Positions 27,869 through 37,891 of a stretch of 38,676 nucleotides of DNA are shown piece after piece. The notes beneath the pieces were generated by a model. That model saw only the letters and a list, made by a program, of their open reading frames with translations. It was not told the origin of the DNA and ran no database searches. A program made the translations under genes and the position numbers. Within the stretch, counting starts at the first letter, position 1, and each line of letters opens with the position of its first letter. This DNA is from an uncultured bacterium (lineage in GTDB: Bacteria; Bacillota; Clostridia; Lachnospirales; Lachnospiraceae): positions 1 to 38,676 of the forward strand of contig CALZQA010000016.1 in the NCBI GenBank assembly GCA_945828315.1, in the 5' to 3' direction.

Positions 27869-29074
27869 ATGGACGAAAAACGCGAACGGAACCTTGATTT
27901 TGACAAAATTGTCGATCGGAAAAACACCGGTTGTCTGAAATATGATTTTGCAAAGCAGCGCGGAATGCCGGAGGATGTGCTGCCTTTGTGGGTGGCGGAT
28001 ATGGATTTTGAGACGTCGTCTTATATACAGGATGCGCTCACTGAGCGGATCAAACACGGAATCTTTGGATACAGTGAGCCCACAGATTCCTACTTTGAGA
28101 GTGTCAGTGGATGGATGCGTGAACGGCATCACTGGGAGGTAAAACGGCAGTGGCTGGTCAACACACCGGGTGTTGTATTTGCGCTGGCAACAGCGGTCAA
28201 GGCATACACAGAGCCGGGAGATGCAGTGTTGATCCAGCAACCGGTCTACTATCCGTTTTCAGAGGTCATCAAGGATGCCGGCAGACGCGTCGTGAGCAAT
28301 ACGCTGTATCTGGGTGACGACAACCGCTATCATATTGACTTTGATGATTTTGAAAAGAAGATCATCGATGAGCAGGTGAAATTGTTTCTGTTGTGCAGCC
28401 CTCACAACCCGGTTGCGCGTGTCTGGACGAGGGAGGAACTGGAACAGCTCGGCGATATCTGCCTGAAGCATGGCGTTCTTGTTGTGGCAGATGAGATCCA
28501 CAATGATTTTGTTTTCAAGGGTGAGCACACGGTGTTTGCCACTGTGAAAAAGGAGTTTGAGGACAACTGTATCATCTGCACGGCACCAAGTAAGACGTTC
28601 AATCTTGCCAGTATGCTAAACTCCAATATTTTTATACCCAACCAGCAGCTGCGCCGGAAATTCAGAAAAGAAGTAAATGCAGTGGGTCTGAGTCAGATTG
28701 GTGTGCTGGGCTTTGTGGCTTGCGAGGCTGCTTACCGGGATGGCGGCGAATGGTATGAGGCGATGATGCGTTATGTGGCTGATAACATTGCATTTACAAA
28801 GAAATATGTAGAGGAAAATCTGCCCGGCGTACATATGACAGACCATGAGGGCACGTATCTCGTCTGGCTGGATTTCCGTGAGATCGGACTAAGTGCAGAT
28901 GAATTGGACGACTTGATCATCCATAAGGCGAAACTGTGGCTGGACAGCGGAAAGATCTTTGGCGAGAGCGGAAACTGTTTCCAGCGGATCAATGTGGCAT
29001 GTCCCCGTGCGACACTGCTCGATGCGCTGGAGCGGATCCGGAAAGCGTTGCAGGAAAATGAAGGCTGTGCCTAA
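27869..29074 (+). CDS. patB: MalY/PatB family PLP-dependent C-S lyase
   Basis: This is a 401-residue fold-type I aminotransferase-like enzyme. It has PLWVADMDFE near the N-terminus, FLLCSPHNPVARVW, VVADEIHNDFVF, and APSKTFNLAS with the PLP lysine K242; all are typical of MalY/PatB cystathionine beta-lyases, which release thiol or sulfide, pyruvate and ammonia from cystathionine or cysteine S-conjugates. GAGGTG precedes the ATG. No CCTA..TAGG box was seen in front of it, so it may not be in the Rrf2 set. It fits the sulfur theme of the right half of the window. Confidence 0.88.
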   Translation: MDEKRERNLDFDKIVDRKNTGCLKYDFAKQRGMPEDVLPLWVADMDFETSSYIQDALTERIKHGIFGYSEPTDSYFESVSGWMRERHHWEVKRQWLVNTPGVVFALATAVKAYTEPGDAVLIQQPVYYPFSEVIKDAGRRVVSNTLYLGDDNRYHIDFDDFEKKIIDEQVKLFLLCSPHNPVARVWTREELEQLGDICLKHGVLVVADEIHNDFVFKGEHTVFATVKKEFEDNCIICTAPSKTFNLASMLNSNIFIPNQQLRRKFRKEVNAVGLSQIGVLGFVACEAAYRDGGEWYEAMMRYVADNIAFTKKYVEENLPGVHMTDHEGTYLVWLDFREIGLSADELDDLIIHKAKLWLDSGKIFGESGNCFQRINVACPRATLLDALERIRKALQENEGCA

Positions 29075-29527: not shown

Positions 29528-29570
29528 ATACCCATTGACGGTTACGCTGTTGATGGGTATCTTTGTCAAC
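29528..29570 (+). promoter_or_regulatory. Promoter within a 33-bp dyad, upstream of the PLP enzyme gene
   Basis: The promoter is TTGACG (29535-29540), 17 bases, TATCTT (29558-29563). It lies in the dyad ATACCCAT (29528-29535), N17, ATGGGTAT (29553-29560), followed by TTGTCAAC (29563-29570). The same dyad, spacing and downstream motif occur at 30889-30931. A shared operator is the natural reading. Confidence 0.7.
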
Positions 29571-29594
29571 ACAAAATAAAGAGGAGGCATGAGA

Positions 29595-30791
29595 ATGGCG
29601 AAGAAAGAGAACAAGTATAAAGGTTATGATATCACCACACAGGCAATCCATACCGGCACAGATTATGATCTGGAGACAGGTGCTGTCCGGCGTCCGCTTC
29701 ATATGGCAAACAGTTTCAAACTGCCGGATGACTTATCGCAGGTCAATTATTCTTCCACAGATCTTCTGATGTATGCAAGAAACGGAAATCCGAATCAACA
29801 CTGGCTGGAGGAAAAGATTGCCGCACTGCACGATGCGGATGATGCGATCGTGCTGGCCAGCGGAGTTGCGGCGCTGCATGCACTGTTCTGGACGCTTCTG
29901 GAATCAGGAGACAGGGTGGTGTATCCAAATGTCAGTTATATGGCTGTATACAGAATGTTCCATGAGCTGTTTAACCGTAAATTCAAAGTGGAAACAGTCA
30001 TGGTTGATATGACAGACCTTGAAGCCGTGAAGAAAGCAATTACACCGGGTACAAAACTGGTTCATATCGAAACTCCGGACAATCCTACAAACGGAATTAC
30101 GGACATTGCTGCGATTGCAGAGATCGCACATCAAAACGGAGCGGTGTTGTCTGTGGATAACACATTCGCTTCCCCTTTCAACCAGAAGCCGTTGGAACTG
30201 GGGGCTGATTTTGTGATCGAAGCCATTACAAAATACATCAATGGACACGGGGATGCACAGGGTGGGGCGATCATTTCCAATGATCTGGAGACGATGGACC
30301 GCATCCGGTATGAGGCACAGGTAAATGTGGGATCTGTGATCAGTCCCTTTAATGCATGGCAGATTTTTCGCGGTTCAGTTACGTTTCCGCTTCGCATGGA
30401 ACGGATCAACCGATCTGCGCAAAAGATCGCCGAATGGCTGGAGAAAAGGGAGAATGTCACGTTTGTATCATATCCGGGACTTGCCAGTCATCCGGGTCAT
30501 GAGACAGCGGTAAAACAGATGAAAAACGGCTATGGAGGAGTGATCTCCTTCGGATTGCATACAGATGATAAAACAGTGGAACGTTTCTGTGCAGCCCTGA
30601 AGGTAGTGACCTTTGCAGTTTCTCTCGGACATGATGAGAGTTTGATTTTTCCGCAGCCCAGCTATGATGAGCGGATCCATCTCTATCCGGAAAGGTTTCG
30701 GAAAGGCTTTATCCGTTTCAGTGTGGGGCTGGAAGATCCGGAGGATATTATCCGGGATATTGATCAGGCACTGAAAAGTGTAGGACTGTAA
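29595..30791 (+). CDS. Cys/Met metabolism PLP-dependent enzyme (gamma-lyase or gamma-synthase-like)
   Basis: This encodes 398 residues from ATG 29595, seven bases after GAGGAGG; ATG 29589 is too close to that site. Fold-type I features: YARNGNP (Y60, R62), the PLP-stacking region PNVSYMAVYRMF, LSVDNTFASPF, and AITKYINGHGDAQGG with Schiff-base lysine K213. Length suits cystathionine gamma-synthase, cystathionine gamma-lyase or methionine gamma-lyase. The usual LYGGT or LYGCT after the stacking Tyr reads SYMAV here, so specificity is uncertain. It has its own promoter inside a dyad shared with the downstream cysteine operon, which suggests that it works with that operon, perhaps in trans-sulfuration or release of sulfide. 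Confidence 0.85.
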   Translation: MAKKENKYKGYDITTQAIHTGTDYDLETGAVRRPLHMANSFKLPDDLSQVNYSSTDLLMYARNGNPNQHWLEEKIAALHDADDAIVLASGVAALHALFWTLLESGDRVVYPNVSYMAVYRMFHELFNRKFKVETVMVDMTDLEAVKKAITPGTKLVHIETPDNPTNGITDIAAIAEIAHQNGAVLSVDNTFASPFNQKPLELGADFVIEAITKYINGHGDAQGGAIISNDLETMDRIRYEAQVNVGSVISPFNAWQIFRGSVTFPLRMERINRSAQKIAEWLEKRENVTFVSYPGLASHPGHETAVKQMKNGYGGVISFGLHTDDKTVERFCAALKVVTFAVSLGHDESLIFPQPSYDERIHLYPERFRKGFIRFSVGLEDPEDIIRDIDQALKSVGL

Positions 30792-30888: not shown

Positions 30889-30931
30889 ATACCCATTGAC
30901 ATCTCAGATGTCGATGGGTATAATTGTCAAC
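30889..30931 (+). promoter_or_regulatory. Consensus promoter inside a 33-bp dyad, for the tRNA-like element and cysteine operon
   Basis: TTGACA (30896-30901), 17 bases, TATAAT (30919-30924): a perfect sigma-A consensus. The dyad is ATACCCAT (30889-30896), N17, ATGGGTAT (30914-30921), extended inside by GACATC/GATGTC. TTGTCAAC follows at 30924-30931. Such a strong promoter is likely to be held down by a repressor. Confidence 0.85.
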
Positions 30932-30946
30932 ATGAATCACACAAAA

Positions 30947-30963
30947 CCTATTTGAAAAGTAGG
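30947..30963 (+). promoter_or_regulatory. Rrf2/CymR-like operator in the leader
   Basis: CCTA (30947-30950), nine bases, TAGG (30960-30963), within AACCTATTTGAAAAGTAGG. It is about 15 bases downstream of the predicted transcription start, the same placement as the boxes of the rrf2 gene and the second metY. Confidence 0.65.
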
Positions 30964-30974
30964 AAAACAAAAAG

Positions 30975-31044
30975 GATGTTGTAGCCGCAGGAATGGCATA
31001 GGTTTGCAAAACCGAAGTTGGTGGTTCGAGTCCGCCCGGCATCA
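30975..31044 (+). tRNA. tRNA-Cys(GCA)-like gene or element, atypical
   Basis: A 70-base cloverleaf can be drawn. The acceptor is 30975-30981 with 31037-31043 (7 bp, two G-U). The D arm is GCCG/TGGC around 30984-30997, with a short loop containing GG. The anticodon arm is 30999-31015 with loop TTGCAAA (anticodon GCA at 31006-31008, Cys). A four-base variable loop follows, then a T arm of GGTGG/CCGCC with canonical loop TTCGAGT. Odd points: an A-G mismatch in the anticodon stem (31000 with 31014), C instead of A at D-loop position 14, discriminator A at 31044 where bacterial tRNA-Cys normally has U73, and no encoded CCA. It may be a functional variant, a regulatory tRNA mimic or a decayed copy. 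Confidence 0.6.
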
Positions 31045-31046
31045 TT

Positions 31047-31085
31047 TCTATGGATCCCCATTCGTGATAAGGGGGAATTCATAGA
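31047..31085 (+). other. Strong hairpin between tRNA-like element and first operon gene
   Basis: TCTATG (31047-31052) pairs with CATAGA (31080-31085), and TCCCC with GGGGA further in, giving about 13 pairs with one or two bulges. No T run follows, so it is not a classical terminator. It may protect the 5' end of the mRNA after release of the tRNA-like part, or act in control. Confidence 0.7.
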
Positions 31086-31112
31086 TCAGAAAGAAAGTAA
31101 GGACAAAAAGAT

Positions 31113-32441
31113 ATGGATCAAATAGAAAAAAAAATAGTCAGACTGGTCGATGAGCATCGTGATGAAATCGTAGCATTTGGACGTGATATATATACGCATG
31201 CGGAGTTGGGCTACAAAGAGTTTCGTACCAGTGAAAAATTCAATAGCTTTATAAAAGATAAGGTTTCCGGGTTGCAGACAGGAATCGCAATTACTGGAAC
31301 AAAAGCTTATATCAATGAAGATAAAAAAGATAATTTTTCCCTTGCATTGATTGGAGAACTCGATGCGCTGCGGATTCCTAATCACAAATATGCAAATCCG
31401 GAAACACAGGGTGCACATTGTTGCGGACATCATGCACAACTGACAGGCCTTGTCGGAGCAGCTTTTGCTTTAACAGATCCTGAAGTAGCAGCGGCATTGG
31501 ATGGTCAGCTGGTTTTTGTGACTACTCCGGCTGAGGAATACGGTGAACTGGAATTTAAAAACAGTCTCGTTGAGCAGGGCAAGATCCGATACGGCGGTGG
31601 TAAGTGTGAGATGATTCGAATAGGCGCGTTTGACGATATTGATGCAGCTGTTGCCCACCATATTTCTATGGATGGTATCCGGATAGGATCCGGAAGCTGT
31701 AACGGATTTGTATCAAAAGTGATCCGCATAAAAGGCAAAGGTGCTCATGCAGCAGGTGCGAAGGAGGAAGGAATCAATGCACTCTATGCGGCAAATCTTG
31801 GTCTGCAGGCGCTTGCATTTAATAAAGATACCTTTTATGAAAAGGATTGCGTGAGAGTACATCCGATCATGACAAAAGGTGGAGATCTTGTGAATGTTGT
31901 TCCGGAGGAAGCAGTGATAGAAACTCTGGTAAGAGGAAAAACATTGGAAGCGTTTGCAGATGCAGCGAGAAAGACAGACCGGTCCTTTAAAGGTGGCGCA
32001 ATTGCGCTGGGAGCAGGATATCGGATCGAGACGATGCCGGGCTATCTGCCGGGAGTAGGGCAGAATGTTCCGGAGGAAATGATAGATGTGATTACATCGG
32101 CGGCAGAAGGAAAGCCGGTGACAGTCATTCCAAAGGAAACACATGATTGCGGCTCTACAGATCTGGGAGATCTGGAACATATGATGCCAGTACTCACCTT
32201 TTATACCGGTGGTGCTTCCGGAAGTGGTTTACATGCCTCTGATTTTGATATTATCGATGAGGATGAGGCGTATGTTCTGACAGCAAAGTTTTATGCGCTG
32301 ACAGCGTATCGCCTGTTAAAAGACAATGCCAGGGTTGCAAAAAAGGTAAAAGAACAATACAGGCCGATATTTGCAAATAAGGAAGAGTATATCGATTTTA
32401 TGGAAAAGTTTTATTCAGTTGAGGAAGCAGAAATTCAATAG
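31113..32441 (+). CDS. M20 family metallo-amidohydrolase
   Basis: This is a 442-residue M20-type amidohydrolase. It has ALIGELDALRIP, the metal motif AHCCGHHAQ (C104, H106), TPAEEYGE with the Glu pair, AVAHHIS, and a C-terminal GSGLHASDF supplying a metal His. The layout resembles AbgB-like and N-acyl or N-carbamoyl amino acid hydrolases, which cleave an amide to free the amino acid. Being directly followed by an ATC-hydrolase family gene, it could act on N-carbamoyl- or N-acyl-cysteine; in Pseudomonas the L-ATC route uses just such a second hydrolase. This pairing is inference. It is first in the leader-controlled operon, behind GTAAGGA. Confidence 0.88.
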   Translation: MDQIEKKIVRLVDEHRDEIVAFGRDIYTHAELGYKEFRTSEKFNSFIKDKVSGLQTGIAITGTKAYINEDKKDNFSLALIGELDALRIPNHKYANPETQGAHCCGHHAQLTGLVGAAFALTDPEVAAALDGQLVFVTTPAEEYGELEFKNSLVEQGKIRYGGGKCEMIRIGAFDDIDAAVAHHISMDGIRIGSGSCNGFVSKVIRIKGKGAHAAGAKEEGINALYAANLGLQALAFNKDTFYEKDCVRVHPIMTKGGDLVNVVPEEAVIETLVRGKTLEAFADAARKTDRSFKGGAIALGAGYRIETMPGYLPGVGQNVPEEMIDVITSAAEGKPVTVIPKETHDCGSTDLGDLEHMMPVLTFYTGGASGSGLHASDFDIIDEDEAYVLTAKFYALTAYRLLKDNARVAKKVKEQYRPIFANKEEYIDFMEKFYSVEEAEIQ

Positions 32442-32455
32442 AAAGGAGAATAATT

Positions 32456-32989
32456 ATGGGAAAAGAGTCTTATCGGATCACAGGAACAGTCGACAGAGAG
32501 TTGATGGTTGACCAAATTCGAAAGGCGGCAAGACAGTTTGCAATGCAGTACTTCCATTTTTGTAAAACACTATATGAAAGATATGGGAAAGAGGCTGCGA
32601 AGGATATTGTGAGACAAACGGTTCATGAGTTGGCTTTGGACAGATCTGAACAGATCCGGACAATATCACTTGCCAAAGGTAAAAAAGCAGACAGTGTGTC
32701 AGATTTTATGTCGGATATTGATCTGCCCTTTGAGGGATGGATCGCAGAGTGGGGAGAAGATCATTGCCCGTATGCGGAGGTATGGCGGAAATATTTCGAT
32801 GAATATCCGTGGTTTAAAGAATTTGCTTTATTTTACTGTGATGTGATCGATACATCGACGATTGAAAACTATTCAAAATGTTTATCTCATCGTATTACGC
32901 AAAATGTTATGGTGGAAGGAACTTCTTGTGAAAGAGAATATTTTGAGAGCGATGATGTAAAGGAAGGCAGGTATACATATGGCAGCTGA
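32456..32989 (+). CDS. L-2-amino-thiazoline-4-carboxylate (ATC) hydrolase family protein
   Basis: This encodes 177 residues with the features I associate with the ATC hydrolase family: EDHCPYAEVW (H103, C104), FALFYCDVID (C128), and NYSKCLSHRITQNVMVEGTSCERE (C142, H145, C158, in pieces). Characterised members open the thiazoline ring of L-ATC to N-carbamoyl-cysteine, a step to cysteine; many clostridial members have unknown substrates. AAAGGAGAA precedes the ATG, 14 bases after the M20 gene. It overlaps the permease gene by 11 bases, so the genes are tightly co-expressed. Family call is good; substrate is not established. Confidence 0.75.
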   Translation: MGKESYRITGTVDRELMVDQIRKAARQFAMQYFHFCKTLYERYGKEAAKDIVRQTVHELALDRSEQIRTISLAKGKKADSVSDFMSDIDLPFEGWIAEWGEDHCPYAEVWRKYFDEYPWFKEFALFYCDVIDTSTIENYSKCLSHRITQNVMVEGTSCEREYFESDDVKEGRYTYGS

Positions 32990-33809
32990 GAGAAGTGAAA
33001 AACAGGTGACAAAGGAGGATACCAGACCGGCAGTAGTCGGGAAAAAGAAATTCTCGTGGATCAATGCTGTGCAGGTTATTACATTAATCGCTTTGCTGGC
33101 ATATATGCAAGTAGTCGTGGACACAGGAAGGATCAGTAAAGTATTCATCGCGAGCCCTACGATGATCGTACAGGAGGCTGTGAAGATCATAACAGACGGT
33201 ACGCTGCTGCCTCATCTGATCCTCACGCTGGAAGAGGTGCTCGTGGGATATGCACTGGCGGTGGCGGTGGGAATCATCGTGGCACTGCTCTGGACCTTAT
33301 TTCCAAAGCTGGAGGCATATATGGATGTGTTTTGTGCAGCAATCATGGCAGTGCCCAAGACAGCGATTCTTCCGTTGTTGATCCTTTGGTTCGGTATCGG
33401 ATTTAAATCTAAGGTGGTTCTGGTATTTTTGTTCTCTGTATTTCAGATTTTATATAACACTGTTACGGGAGCAAAGCAGACAAATATCAAATATTTAAAG
33501 GTTGCGAAAGTGTTTAAGGCAAACCGATTGCAGACTGTATTCCAGATTATGATTCCTTCAGCACTTCCATCTATGTTTAGTGGTTTGCGGCTTGCGGCGG
33601 CAACGGCATTGACCGGTGTCATTTTTTCAGAGATGCAGTCGGCAAAAGGCGGACTCGGATATTTATTGTATGAAGCACAGAATCTGCTCAATTCAGCAAG
33701 AATGTTTTTTATTGTCATTCTTGTAACCGTGATCTCAGTACTTTTTGTCCAGGTCATTGCACTCATTGAGTTTGCAGTCTGTCATAAATGGCAGAACAAA
33801 ATCCATTAG
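32979..33809 (+). CDS. ABC transporter permease (SsuC/TauC-type), cysteine operon
   Basis: This is a 276-residue permease with an N-terminal cytoplasmic tail (about 28 residues) and about six helices. It has the conserved loop around AKVFKANRLQTVFQIMIPSALP that docks on the ATPase. It resembles permeases of the sulfonate/taurine/pyrimidine importer group, as does the one at 11639. AGGAAGG lies before the ATG. Its overlap with the ATC-hydrolase gene suggests that the imported compound is the substrate of the two hydrolases. Ligand unknown. Confidence 0.9.
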   Translation: MAAERSEKQVTKEDTRPAVVGKKKFSWINAVQVITLIALLAYMQVVVDTGRISKVFIASPTMIVQEAVKIITDGTLLPHLILTLEEVLVGYALAVAVGIIVALLWTLFPKLEAYMDVFCAAIMAVPKTAILPLLILWFGIGFKSKVVLVFLFSVFQILYNTVTGAKQTNIKYLKVAKVFKANRLQTVFQIMIPSALPSMFSGLRLAAATALTGVIFSEMQSAKGGLGYLLYEAQNLLNSARMFFIVILVTVISVLFVQVIALIEFAVCHKWQNKIH

Positions 33810-33861: not shown

Positions 33862-34926
33862 ATGAAAAGAAAAGTATTATCAGTAATTTTAACATTAGCC
33901 ATAACGGCAGGGCTGCTGTCCGGATGTGGTGCTGCATCCGAGACCGGATCAGAGAATAGCGCAGGAACAGCAACAGAGGAAACTTCAGCTGATGCTTCTG
34001 AAGAAGAAACGATCACGATCAATGCCTGCCTGGCAGTCGGAATGACCGGTGCAGTAAATAATTTTGCGATTGAAAAAGGTCTTTACAAGGATCTGGGTAT
34101 AGAATTTAATAATACTCCGTGGACATCAAATGATGAAGTTCTCTCACTGATTACTCGTGGAGAGATTGATTTCGCAGATGGAGATCCTTCTTCCTTTATC
34201 CCCGGAATTGCGAATGGTGTACCTGCAAAACTGGTAGGAAATATGTGGAGATACTCCGGATGCTACTGGCTTGTAGCAAATAACGATATTGAATCAATCG
34301 CTGATCTGAAGGGAAAAACGATCGGTACAGCGGCTGCCGCAGGCGGAATGAAACTTTCTGTATTAAAGATGCTGGAATCAGAGGGACTTACAGAGGATGA
34401 TGTGGAATTAGTTGCAAACGGTGTATACCAGGGAGCCTATGCAACACTGACATCGGGAGAAGTAGACGCAACGATCATTCATAATCCGTATGCTGCATTA
34501 GCTGAGGCAGAGGGAGAAGGTCATATCCTTGGCCGGGCATGGGATTATATTCCGGATTATTATACCGGTACATTACTTGCATCCGACAAGATCATCAATG
34601 AAGATCCTGATAAGCTGCAACGAGTGATCACCGCATATTATACCGTGCATGAGCAGGTGAAAAATGAATACTTCGATGAGTTTATCAAATGGGTATCAGA
34701 GCAGATGAATGTTGATGAAGACGTGATGAGAACAGCCGTAGAATCTGAGAAGGACGTATGGCTGGATTATCCGGTGATTCCGGAAGACCGAGTGAACAAT
34801 ACAGTAGATATTCTTCATCAATACGGCTGGTTAGATGAGAATATTACCGCGGATGGTACATATGACAACACGTTTGCCATAAAGGCAGCAGAAGAATTAG
34901 GAATGGAAGATCCTTATAAAAAATAG
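33862..34926 (+). CDS. ABC substrate-binding lipoprotein, cysteine operon
   Basis: This is a 354-residue lipoprotein with signal peptide and lipobox ending at C22 (LLSGC), then a Ser/Thr/Glu-rich linker (about 25-50). The mature protein is an NMT1/SsuA-like binding protein: GMTGAVNNFAIEKGLYKDLGI, TRGEIDFADGDPSS, and TSGEVDATIIHNPYAAL. AAGAAGGAGA is the ribosome site. Gene order permease, binding protein, ATPase differs from the first importer. The binding pocket sequence is clearly unlike that of the protein at 13355, so the two importers probably take different ligands. Confidence 0.9.
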   Translation: MKRKVLSVILTLAITAGLLSGCGAASETGSENSAGTATEETSADASEEETITINACLAVGMTGAVNNFAIEKGLYKDLGIEFNNTPWTSNDEVLSLITRGEIDFADGDPSSFIPGIANGVPAKLVGNMWRYSGCYWLVANNDIESIADLKGKTIGTAAAAGGMKLSVLKMLESEGLTEDDVELVANGVYQGAYATLTSGEVDATIIHNPYAALAEAEGEGHILGRAWDYIPDYYTGTLLASDKIINEDPDKLQRVITAYYTVHEQVKNEYFDEFIKWVSEQMNVDEDVMRTAVESEKDVWLDYPVIPEDRVNNTVDILHQYGWLDENITADGTYDNTFAIKAAEELGMEDPYKK

Positions 34927-34947
34927 GAACTGATGGGGGAGAATGTA

Positions 34948-35730
34948 ATGCCAACAATAAAAGCAAAGAATATTGAAAAATATTATCAGAGTACAGACGG
35001 AGAACAGGTCCACGCATTGAAGGATATTAGTCTTACTGTTGAGGATGGTGAATTCGTAGCCATTGTAGGACCTTCCGGTTGCGGAAAGAGTACCTTTCTT
35101 GAGATTGTAGCAGGGCTTCTCCCCCACGACGGCGGAGAAGTATATCTGGACGACCAGCTGATAACTGAAACAAGTCGTGAGATCGGAGTTGTATTTCAGG
35201 ATGCCTCTCTTTTTCCGTGGCGTACGATCAAGAGAAATATTGCTTACGGAATGGAGCTCGCGAAGGTTCCAAAGGAAGAACAGGAGAAACGTCTTACACA
35301 TTATATAAAAATGATGAATTTGGAAGGATTTGAAAATAAGTACCCTGCGCAGCTTTCTGGTGGCATGAAGCAGAGAGCAGGAATTGCACGGACGCTTGCT
35401 ATGAATCCGAAAGTGATCTTAATGGATGAACCGTTTAGTGCAGTCGATCATCTGACAAGGTGTACATTGCAGGAAGAGTTGATCAAGATCCACGAGCTGG
35501 AGAAGAAGACGATTCTGTTTGTCACACATGATATCAATGAAGCAGTATTTCTTGCCGACAGAGTGATCCTTTTGAGTCCGCGTCCGTCTGTCATACAGGA
35601 AGAGTATCAGATTAAGCTTCCTTATCCGAGACACAGAGATGATGAATATTTGTCAAAAGTGGCGGCAATGATCATGGCTGATATCAGCCGGGGCAGAAAA
35701 ACGGATGAGGATATTGAGTATTTTATTTAA
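34948..35730 (+). CDS. ABC transporter ATPase, cysteine operon
   Basis: This encodes 260 residues from ATG 34948, behind GGGGGAG; an ATG at 34933 is in frame but overlaps that site. It has Walker A GPSGCGKST (41-49), a Q-loop in VVFQDASLFPWRTI, the signature LSGGMKQR, Walker B VILMDEPFSAVD, and the switch His in FVTHDINEA. It is of the same SsuB/TauB type as the ATPase at 12450. It would drive the permease at 32979. Confidence 0.92.
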   Translation: MPTIKAKNIEKYYQSTDGEQVHALKDISLTVEDGEFVAIVGPSGCGKSTFLEIVAGLLPHDGGEVYLDDQLITETSREIGVVFQDASLFPWRTIKRNIAYGMELAKVPKEEQEKRLTHYIKMMNLEGFENKYPAQLSGGMKQRAGIARTLAMNPKVILMDEPFSAVDHLTRCTLQEELIKIHELEKKTILFVTHDINEAVFLADRVILLSPRPSVIQEEYQIKLPYPRHRDDEYLSKVAAMIMADISRGRKTDEDIEYFI

Positions 35731-35747
35731 CGTACAAGGAGATTATC

Positions 35748-36632
35748 ATGGCAAATATAGATACAAGTATGGAGTATTTACCGAAAGAAGAAGTGATGGC
35801 TATCTGGAATGCTAATTTGAAGCTTACAGATGAAGATTTTCTGGCGATGGATGATGATGAATTTCGTGCCCGTGTGAGAGAGCGTTGCCATCATACCTTG
35901 GAGATTCAGGTTTATCACGCGCAGCACAGAGATCAGAAGCTTTCATCGACGCAGGCAGATTATGCCAAACGCTTATTGCGATTATGGGTTGAAAAAGGTC
36001 TTTCTACAGATCTTCCGGAATATAAGTATGTTTCGTTTTTGATTGAAACTGCTGATAAGCTGGCAGCGGGAGAACATGTAGACTTGTCGTCTTACAAACC
36101 GACACCTGTAACAAAAGAAATGGAGGATACGTTCTTTACAATCTTGAAAGAGCGTCGTTCCGTGAGGGAATTTACGGACGAAGAGGTTCCGGATGAAATA
36201 ATCGACAAGGTTTTAGATGCAGGTCTTTGGGCTGCGCACGGCTGCAATGTGCAGTCAATCAAATATGTGGTTGTTCGGGAAAAGAATGAGCCCGGACTGT
36301 TCAGGGGCAGTGATGTTCCGGGTGGTCCGGTGCATCTGGTGATCTGCCAGGATATGAGATGTTACAGAGCAAATTCTTTTACCCCGCGAAGAAATCAGCT
36401 ATTGGATGCCGGGGCTGCGGGACAGAACATTGTTCTGGCGGCTCATGCAGCGGGATTGGAGGGTGTGTGGCTGACCTTTCCCAATGAAGCATTTTGCGAC
36501 AGATTGAGGGAGAAATTCAAGCTTCCCGAATATATTCGCCTTGTGACATATGTAGATGTAGGATATGGCGCACAAACGCCGCATCCGCCTCTTCGCTGGG
36601 ATGTGAAGGATACCATTCTCGGAAGATTTTAA
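35748..36632 (+). CDS. Nitroreductase family flavoprotein with N-terminal extension
   Basis: This encodes 294 residues. From about 129 on it is a nitroreductase-type FMN domain, with ILKERRSVREFTDEEVPDE (the RRSVR phosphate contact at 136-140) and a later AGAAGQNIVLAAHAAGLEGVW. The first about 120 residues are a mostly helical, acidic extension I do not recognise. Such enzymes use FMN and NAD(P)H on varied substrates, including ring oxidations or reductions; an action on a thiazoline or thiazole ring is only a thought. AAGGAG precedes the ATG, and spacing of 17 bases keeps it in the operon. Confidence 0.82.
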   Translation: MANIDTSMEYLPKEEVMAIWNANLKLTDEDFLAMDDDEFRARVRERCHHTLEIQVYHAQHRDQKLSSTQADYAKRLLRLWVEKGLSTDLPEYKYVSFLIETADKLAAGEHVDLSSYKPTPVTKEMEDTFFTILKERRSVREFTDEEVPDEIIDKVLDAGLWAAHGCNVQSIKYVVVREKNEPGLFRGSDVPGGPVHLVICQDMRCYRANSFTPRRNQLLDAGAAGQNIVLAAHAAGLEGVWLTFPNEAFCDRLREKFKLPEYIRLVTYVDVGYGAQTPHPPLRWDVKDTILGRF

Positions 36633-36644
36633 AGGAGAGCTTTT

Positions 36645-37340
36645 ATGAATATTGTAGTCGTGGGAGGAAGCCGAGGAATCGGAAAGGCAATTGCCACGCA
36701 GCTGGCAGGAGACGGAAATCAAGTCTTAATTGTCGGGAGAAACAGAGAGACACTCGAAAATACCGTAAAAGAGATCGGGAAAAATGCTTCATTTTATCAG
36801 GCGGATATCACAAAAGAAGTGGATAGTCTTGCATTAGCGGAATATGTTAAAACTGAATTTGTCATTGATGGTCTGGTGCTTTCAGCAGCGCAGTTTCCAA
36901 GACAGGAGACGAAAAAATCCGTAATCGAGCCGGATGTTGCGGAGTTATCTTCCATTTTGGAAGCAAATGTAGTGGCCAATTATCGGTTCGTAAAATATCT
37001 GATTCCGTTATTACAAAAACGCATTCATCCACGGATCGTTATTATCGGTTCTACATCCGGAATCAGGCAGGATAAAGGTGGAGTATACGGCATCTCAAAA
37101 TGGGCGCTTGCATCCTATGCATATAACTTAAGAGATGAGTGTAAAGCTTATGGGATAGGTGTATCACTGATTAATCCGGGAGGAACTTTCACAGAGACGC
37201 GGGTTAAAAAATCCGGGGATGATCATAGTCTGTTGGAGAGTAGCGATTTTGGCATTTTGGTTTCAGCATTGTTTCGAATGTCGCCTCAGGCGGTTATGGA
37301 GCGGGTGGATATCAGACCCATTGCTGGCGACACGTATTAA
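36645..37340 (+). CDS. Short-chain dehydrogenase/reductase
   Basis: This is a 231-residue Rossmann-fold oxidoreductase. The cofactor motif is GGSRGIG at 7-13, followed by IVGRNRE, which suggests NADP(H). The catalytic Ser is in IIGSTSG, and the YxxxK motif in YGISKWALASYAYNLRDE. The C-terminus after PGGTFTETR is short. Substrate unknown. It begins 12 bases after the nitroreductase gene behind AAAGGAGAG and is the last gene of the putative cysteine operon; no terminator is seen after it, but a new promoter follows. Confidence 0.88.
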   Translation: MNIVVVGGSRGIGKAIATQLAGDGNQVLIVGRNRETLENTVKEIGKNASFYQADITKEVDSLALAEYVKTEFVIDGLVLSAAQFPRQETKKSVIEPDVAELSSILEANVVANYRFVKYLIPLLQKRIHPRIVIIGSTSGIRQDKGGVYGISKWALASYAYNLRDECKAYGIGVSLINPGGTFTETRVKKSGDDHSLLESSDFGILVSALFRMSPQAVMERVDIRPIAGDTY

Positions 37341-37477: not shown

Positions 37478-37891
37478 ATGAAGATTTCAACAAAGGGGCG
37501 CTATGCGCTGCGTATTATGATCGATCTGGCACAACATGATGAGGGCGAGGCGATTCCGTTAAAGGAGATCTCCGAACGGCAGGGGATCACCTTGAAATAT
37601 ATGGAGCAGATCATGCCGCTTTTGACCCGTGCAGGCTATGTGCGCAGCTTCCGTGGGAACAACGGAGGATACCTGCTTTCAAAGTCACCGTCGGATTACA
37701 CGGTGGGCGACATTTTGCGCACAACAGAGGGATCACTGGCGCCGATCGCCTGTCTGGAGGATACGCCGAACCGGTGTGAGCGGCGTGAGGAGTGTAAGAC
37801 GTTAAAGTTCTGGGAAGGTCTTTGGCAGACGATCAATGACTATGTGGACGGCACAACGCTGGAACAGCTGGTAAATCAGAAAAATGAATAA
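37478..37891 (+). CDS. Rrf2 family transcriptional regulator (CymR/IscR-like)
   Basis: This is a 137-residue Rrf2 protein. The N-terminal winged helix (MKISTKGRYALRIMIDLAQH, then ISERQGITLKYMEQIMPLL) matches the DNA-binding part of CymR and IscR. The sensor region has C92, C100 and C106 (spacing CX7CX5C), close to the three cysteines that hold the Fe-S cluster in IscR, so it may bind a cluster or sense thiols; B. subtilis CymR works with CysK. CAGGAG precedes the ATG. The CCTA-N9-TAGG box in its own leader and in those of sulfur genes nearby makes it the likely regulator of the set, as repressor of cysteine and methionine genes. Confidence 0.88.
   Translation: MKISTKGRYALRIMIDLAQHDEGEAIPLKEISERQGITLKYMEQIMPLLTRAGYVRSFRGNNGGYLLSKSPSDYTVGDILRTTEGSLAPIACLEDTPNRCERREECKTLKFWEGLWQTINDYVDGTTLEQLVNQKNE

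Follow-up and report, generated by a model that had tools for sequence, protein, structure and literature searches.

The contig CALZQA010000016.1 of an uncultured bacterium of the family Lachnospiraceae (assembly GCA_945828315.1; 38,676 nucleotides, the whole of which is called the window here) carries a tRNA-like element with a cysteine anticodon that belongs to a family of structurally conserved sequences, found beside sulfur genes and showing anticodons for cysteine or methionine. From the comparison of these sequences, our favored reading, held tentatively and with slightly less confidence than would make it probable, is that the element is a trans-acting, sulfur-regulated tRNA-like RNA gene whose product would act at Cys or Met codons or on the synthetases of these amino acids; an uncharged tRNA mimic is ranked second and a cis-acting element third. 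The first-pass annotation of this DNA had noted no described system of such a layout, and we concur: no description of the element was found in the open-access literature, subscription journals being outside that search, and the family is apparently undescribed so far. The element and its anticodon lie at these positions:

30975..31044, + strand, tRNA-like element, Cys(GCA) type (ARAGORN; Rfam RF00005; family covariance model; covariation)
31006..31008, + strand, anticodon GCA (ARAGORN)

The annotation had described a tRNA-Cys(GCA)-like cloverleaf with the discriminator A in place of U73 and an A-G mismatch in the anticodon stem, and these features are all present. ARAGORN calls a tRNA-Cys(gca) at 30975-31044, and the Rfam tRNA model RF00005 matches it with 45.7 bits (gathering score 29); the window gave no other Rfam match. 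The fold consists of a 7-bp acceptor stem, a 3-bp D stem (with an optional G13.U22) closing an 8-nt loop, a 5-bp anticodon stem with the mismatch A28.G42, a 5-bp T stem and the discriminator A73. Minimum-energy folding of the whole leader does not favor the cloverleaf; such folds often miss it for unmodified tRNA sequences. The missing CCA, which had been listed as an anomaly, is uninformative because none of the 17 canonical tRNA genes examined in the window's genome encodes CCA.

When the leader was compared by BLAST with 299 genomes of the Lachnospiraceae, ten other genera proved to have the cloverleaf, with 82-90% identity, and an eleventh matched in part; between genera it is the cloverleaf only, and not its flanks, that is conserved. 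The elements of 11 relatives score 38.9-51.7 bits with RF00005. A family covariance model built from 12 sequences gives 72-100 bits for family members and at most 44 bits for the canonical tRNAs of the window's genome; the window element scores 93.4 bits (model R1). In a sample of the order, matches above 75 bits were confined to the same family, the next best reached 61.7 bits, and those inspected were canonical tRNA-Cys; no other genome in a sample of the phylum matched the model. A viral origin was considered and rejected, as viral contigs gave no match to the element. Within the family the distribution is patchy (15 of 397 genomes). A wider scan of genomes of 84,980 species, with a DNA pattern that covered the D arm, the anticodon stem and the variable loop and left the anticodon loop free, found at least 119 loci. 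Nearly all of the matches listed come from Lachnospiraceae or from loosely named Clostridia/Eubacteriales metagenome-assembled genomes, the carriers being mostly gut and rumen bacteria, and 26 of 27 genomes hold a single copy. One record titled Anaerolineaceae (L109; L and G numbers denote loci and genomes) places a Met-type element in a Chloroflexota-named metagenome-assembled genome, by misbinning or transfer.

The matches listed include 91 distinct sequences, which were used to measure covariation. All four helices are conserved, except for the one mismatch of the anticodon stem. Pairing is kept in 99.7%, 100% and 99.1% of the cells of the acceptor, D and T helices, respectively, and double-sided changes occur in 10 pairs, including all seven of the acceptor stem, whose sequence is free and which is nevertheless always paired. 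The covariation score is 0.361, compared to 0.182 for shuffled alignments, and none of 500 shuffles reached the observed value. The A28.G42 mismatch is present in all 91. Since the helices covary and the mismatch is invariant, the RNA structure is under selection, its irregularity included. The compensatory changes that the first-pass annotation had proposed to look for are therefore present, in ten other genera as well as in the 91-sequence set, whereas the random decay that it had named as the alternative is not what these sequences display. A pseudogene or processing spacer, that is, a functionless tRNA remnant, would agree with the patchy distribution and with inserts in the T arm of two copies (L094 and L106), but it is contradicted by the strong covariation and the invariant mismatch, as well as by the restriction of the anticodon to Cys and Met and by the orientation of the neighboring genes, since all 377 listed sulfur-gene matches near an element lie on its strand. 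On this evidence the element is not a tRNA remnant, an explanation to which we give almost no weight.

Of the near-invariant bases of tRNAs, the family keeps U8, G18, G19, A21 and the T-loop TTCRANT, but A14 and, in part, U33 are changed. The pair G1-C72 is also kept, and position 73 is a purine in 116 of the 119 matches listed (among the listed Cys-type elements, A in 50, G in 46 and T in 1). The conservation of a purine at position 73 suggests that the 3' end matters, and together with the T-loop and elbow bases it is as would be expected if the RNA underwent maturation and served as a tRNA.

The anticodon of the relatives is GCA or ACA (Cys) or CAU (Met). Although the scan left the loop free, 118 of the 119 matches listed have one of these three or an 8-nt loop that contains GCA or CAU; the only listed locus without a clear Cys or Met anticodon, L141:6658-6728, has the 8-nt loop TCACTAGG, which could read CUA. 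Cys- and Met-type elements share one body outside the anticodon loop. Among the matches listed, the nearest neighbors of several Met-type elements are Cys-type, and one operon type can carry either anticodon (GCA in L098 and CAU in L111; likewise L184 and L112, and L107 and L169), so the anticodon has probably been switched more than once. The two anticodon types nevertheless show a bias in the operons that they accompany. Among the matches listed, 58 of 96 Cys-type elements and none of 22 Met-type elements lie before nifB, nifH or metK (Fisher p 5e-8), and Met-related genes lie within 700 nt of 12 of 22 Met-type elements versus 9 of 96 Cys-type elements (Fisher p 1e-5), with the reservation that the loci in these tests are not phylogenetically independent. 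A strict match between anticodon and pathway was rejected, because there is only this bias and identical operon types carry either anticodon.

Bacterial tRNA-Cys identity requires U73, G2-C71, C3-G70 and the anticodon GCA (PMC9976931, Table 1). The window element has A73, A2-U71 and U3-A70 and retains only GCA from this set; in the family, the pair 2-71 is AU in 80 and the pair 3-70 is UA in 76 of the 91 distinct sequences listed. Judged by these positions, the element is without the acceptor-stem determinants of bacterial Cys identity. A plain extra tRNA-Cys or tRNA-Met isoacceptor, charged by family-specific cysteinyl- or methionyl-tRNA synthetases (CysRS, MetRS) and adding decoding capacity for the Cys-rich Fe-S enzymes of the operons, would fit the ordinary loops of most copies (TTGCAAA, TTCATAG), which have A37, and the nifB/H/D/K-like proteins encoded downstream. 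Against it, A/G73, A2-U71, U3-A70 and the absence of A14 all count against charging by CysRS, one body is shared by two amino acids, and a separate canonical tRNA-Cys with U73 is already present in the window's genome (L016). We regard this explanation as quite improbable: with the CysRS determinants of the acceptor absent and one body serving both anticodons, the element is probably not a plain second Cys isoacceptor. A dedicated second CysRS was likewise rejected as a partner, because 22 of 23 element-bearing genomes have one CysRS match over the cut-off and the 23rd has only a fragment; the remaining matches are weak cross-matches to longer proteins, which we take to be other class I synthetases.

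The genomic context links the family to sulfur metabolism. A sulfur reference gene lies within 2.5 kb of 111 of the 119 matches listed, where context means matches to reference sequences rather than independent annotation, and each of several closely related loci enters the count on its own. Cys-type elements lie mostly between cysK (often with yezD) and nifB/nifX/nifH/cysK/nifD/nifK-like genes, and in Pseudobutyrivibrio ahead of yezD-metK and of nif-like genes; judging solely by the nif-like matches, we presume that the operons behind Cys-type elements resemble those of methylthio-alkane reductase. The neighbors of Met-type elements are metNIQ, cystathionine-synthase-type genes, patB, and ThiS-MoeB or rhodanese genes. 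The host operon varies freely (methylthio-alkane-reductase-like, metK, metNIQ, patB, tcy).

This context can be read in cis. A tRNA-like domain of the mRNA might bind CysRS or MetRS, by analogy with the thrS operator of Escherichia coli, or be cut by RNase P, and so control the downstream gene. Such a leader would explain why, among the matches listed, 88 of 119 elements have a supported sulfur gene on the same strand within 400 nt downstream, often only 20-60 nt from the element to its start, and why a close relative of the window (L140) keeps promoter, palindrome, element and 3' hairpin together although the operon behind them differs. However, several lineages have a copy as the last, 3'-terminal element of an operon: behind metI in L107 and behind patB in L139 and L179, where a Pfam-supported convergent gene comes next, and in L103 and L129, where a terminator directly follows the element. 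A terminator-like hairpin within 80 nt 3' of the element is found in L103/L129, L100, L114 and L169. As L107, L139, L179, L103 and L129 are 3'-terminal or followed by a terminator, they are not leaders, and they argue against a thrS-type operator as the general role. A cis leader is also difficult to reconcile with mostly single copies in genomes that have many sulfur operons, and with conservation between genera of the cloverleaf alone and not of its flanks. By these arrangements, a purely cis leader role fails to cover the family, and we consider the cis explanation unlikely. The 3'-terminal copies, the mostly single copy per genome and the retention of the unit in L140 ahead of a different operon favor, without proving it, a trans-acting RNA that would be co-expressed with sulfur genes. 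The proposal that the element is the leader of a cysteine operon thus stands as to a conserved, functional tRNA-like RNA that is linked to sulfur genes and lacks Cys acceptor identity, and falls short in that the family also has Met (CAU) forms, occupies 3'-terminal and internal places in operons, is mostly single-copy and changes its host operon.

Under the favored reading of a trans-acting RNA at Cys and Met codons, Lachnospiraceae would transcribe a tRNA-like RNA together with sulfur-scavenging genes. Sulfur limitation would turn on the transcript, by release of a repressor in the window and, in Pseudobutyrivibrio, by attenuation at Cys codons; the RNA would be excised by RNase P and a 3' nuclease, and CCA would be added, as for the other CCA-less tRNAs of the genome. 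On the ribosome, the mature RNA might then compete with the starved canonical tRNA-Cys or tRNA-Met for UGY (Cys) or AUG (Met) codons, and it may carry another amino acid, as a sulfur-sparing substitution, or charge poorly and slow these codons. The more specific form of this proposal, a sulfur-starvation tRNA that inserts a sulfur-free amino acid at Cys and Met codons and whose single body is re-addressed by swapping the anticodon, appears doubtful to us.

Several observations weigh against action at codons. Among the matches listed, 14 loci have 8-nt anticodon loops, and in the 90 distinct 7-nt-loop sequences U33 is replaced by C in 15; these loops and the change at U33 fit ordinary decoding poorly. 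In 89 of the same 90 sequences A14, which is near-universal in tRNAs, is C or U. No known synthetase would charge both the GCA and the CAU forms through their shared body, and no second CysRS accompanies the element in the 23 carrier genomes checked. No genome in a small sample of 27 has both anticodon types, which is odd for general sulfur sparing, and the frequent position just ahead of sulfur genes fits a cis element.

Some of these features would agree with an uncharged tRNA mimic, a decoy or sensor that displays a Cys or Met anticodon, either to CysRS/MetRS or in the ribosomal A site, and thereby tunes charging, the stringent response or a regulator during sulfur starvation. The anticodon is retained while all tested acceptor determinants for Cys are lost, the acceptor stem is free in sequence and always paired, and GCA or CAU is still shown where U33 and loop length are relaxed, as in GAGGCATC and TTTCATAG. 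The conserved purine at position 73 and the retained G1-C72, as if the 3' end mattered, speak against a mimic, no protein partner was found for it, and its T-box form fails in the window's genome. The eight T-boxes there lie ahead of genes for ProRS, trpE, PheS, IleRS, AspRS, ThrRS, TyrRS and a CstA-like protein (identified by reading the downstream sequences), none of them is for Cys or Met, and a T-box route for the element was rejected, since all eight serve other amino acids. The Rfam scan of the window found no T-box (RF00230) match in the element's own leader either. We view the mimic as possible, though less likely than the trans-acting tRNA. The sensor, decoy or stress tRNA that the first-pass annotation had offered are all possible, a purely cis sensor being the weakest of the three.

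The sequences around the element suggest how it may be controlled. In the window, the following features were found:

30896..30924, + strand, sigma-70 promoter TTGACA-17-TATAAT, 12/12 consensus, about 50 bases upstream of the element
30889..30921, no strand, 33-base palindrome ATACCCATTGACATCTCAGATGTCGATGGGTAT over the -35 region, putative operator
29528..29560, no strand, second copy of the palindrome with 2 mismatches, ahead of the Cys/Met pyridoxal-phosphate (PLP) enzyme gene
31047..31085, + strand, hairpin TCTATGGATCCCC...GGGGAATTCATAGA directly 3' of the element, without a T-run, partly kept in L140

The perfect promoter, as previously annotated, is confirmed, and it overlaps the palindrome, which suggests repressor control. 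Only two copies of the palindrome exist in the 2.6-Mb genome, both in the window, one at the promoter of the PLP gene and the other at that of the element, and L140 keeps the outer arms of the palindrome. Two observations bear on a CymR/Rrf2 regulon, namely that each of the two local promoters has a palindrome and that the operon includes an Rrf2 gene; the Rrf2-family protein (37478-37891) is a candidate regulator of the palindromes.

In relatives, the evidence points to attenuation. A short open reading frame (ORF) with 4-5 Cys per ten residues (e.g. CCCMNMCMC) lies upstream in nine of the metK-type loci with 8-nt loops, five-Cys windows number 8 on the sense strand and 0 in the antisense control, and in Pseudobutyrivibrio upstream Cys-rich peptides such as MRHILKSENCCCMNMCMC are followed by a terminator, ahead of the element. 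Short Cys/Met-rich ORFs of this kind, found within the upstream 350 nt of L130, L134, L148, L156, L159, L182, L186 and L193, are in Pseudobutyrivibrio likely leader peptides of a cysteine attenuator. Of 118 loci listed, 50 have a terminator-like hairpin in the 75 nt ahead of the element, compared to none of 111 control windows, and in loci that combine a Cys-rich peptide with such a terminator the switch is likely attenuation on cysteine starvation. The cysteine control suggested for the window's operon is thus likely in some relatives. A conserved terminator GACTGACTGGAAARACCAGAGGTTTTG...CCTCTGGTTTTTT with a likewise conserved 5' extension, situated between yezD and the element in L085, L119, L120, L162, L183, L201 and others, is a candidate attenuator. 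In L136 and L090, another short ORF, starting MRSVSIENRTCTCC / MRTLNIENRTCTCC, lies about 100-160 nt 3' of the element and ahead of a cystathionine-synthase-type gene; it is a probable Cys leader peptide.

Compared to known systems, the element shares the cloverleaf, GCA, T-loop and G18G19 of the canonical bacterial tRNA-Cys(GCA), as which ARAGORN calls it, but it has A/G73 where the latter has U73, A2-U71 and U3-A70 at the positions of G2-C71 and C3-G70, an 8-nt D-loop without A14, the invariant A28.G42 and, in some copies, CAU. In the Pseudobutyrivibrio loci, the Cys-rich peptide and the terminator behind it recall Cys leader-peptide attenuators, except that a tRNA-like RNA is the first product encoded beyond the terminator. 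The thrS operator of E. coli is a tRNA-like mRNA domain bound by ThrRS, and it resembles the element in its tRNA mimicry and in an exposed anticodon near a start codon, whereas the element is a full cloverleaf, occurs also at operon ends and is linked to sulfur genes rather than to a synthetase gene. The selC* tRNA-Cys (Mukai et al. 2017) is also an additional non-canonical tRNA-Cys family of anaerobic bacteria, including Firmicutes, and has an 8/4 acceptor domain, a long variable arm like that of selenocysteine tRNA, U73 and, in some groups, its own CysRS* (PMC7609411). In contrast, the element is 7/5 with a 4-nt variable loop and A/G73, and the genomes checked yielded no second CysRS. Allo-tRNAs likewise have non-canonical bodies with different anticodons, but their acceptor domain is a 12-bp 8/4 or 9/3 one and their identity is Ser (PMC7609411), while the element is 7/5 with a short variable loop.

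A tRNA family that is confined to sulfur-amino-acid anticodons and encoded within sulfur operons forms a direct link from nutrient supply to decoding or tRNA charging, and hints at a new way in which cells handle sulfur starvation. An RNA charged with a different amino acid would amount to regulated, sulfur-saving recoding, and one that is never charged to a tRNA decoy by which the use of cysteine and methionine is sensed or tuned. In both cases tRNA would have a new regulatory role, and the cultured carriers Pseudobutyrivibrio ruminis and Eubacterium ruminantium put the question within experimental reach.

The genes around the element in the window are the following:

27869..29074, + strand, PatB-type C-S lyase (TIGR04350, 471.8 bits)
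29589..30791, + strand, Cys/Met metabolism PLP enzyme, cystathionine gamma-synthase / methionine gamma-lyase family (PF01053, 382.5 bits)
31113..32441, + strand, M20 amidohydrolase, first gene behind the element (TIGR01891, 158.1 bits)
32456..32989, + strand, ATC-hydrolase-like protein, second gene (PF14196, 27.1 bits, just under the Pfam cut-off of 28.1)
32979..33809, + strand, ATP-binding cassette (ABC) transporter permease, Ssu/Tau/Sao-like (PF00528; NF040733 below cut-off)
33862..34926, + strand, NMT1/SsuA-like substrate-binding protein (PF09084, 86.3 bits)
34933..35730, + strand, ABC transporter ATPase, Ssu/Tau/Sao-like (PF00005; NF040729, 252 bits, below cut-off)
35748..36632, + strand, nitroreductase-family protein (PF00881)
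36645..37340, + strand, short-chain dehydrogenase (SDR; PF00106)
37478..37891, + strand, Rrf2-family regulator, CymR/IscR-like (PF02082, 135.2 bits; NF047409 CymR, 113.9 bits against a cut-off of 195)

From this gene content and the PatB lyase and Cys/Met PLP enzyme upstream, sulfur acquisition is a reasonable, though not proven, reading of the operon. The ATC-hydrolase family member placed in it by the first-pass annotation corresponds to the second gene, at a score just short of the cut-off, the first being the amidohydrolase.

DUF2292/YezD genes occur in 11 of 18 element-bearing genomes (e.g. G446, G505, G153, G182 and G276), every one within about 350 nt of the element. YezD/DUF2292 was rejected as a universal partner, since it stands as a single copy beside the element in these 11 of 18 genomes and is absent from the window's genome. 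The T-arm inserts of L094 and L106, both Met-type, contain hairpins, and a similar hairpin, perhaps a mobile repeat, flanks the element in L173.
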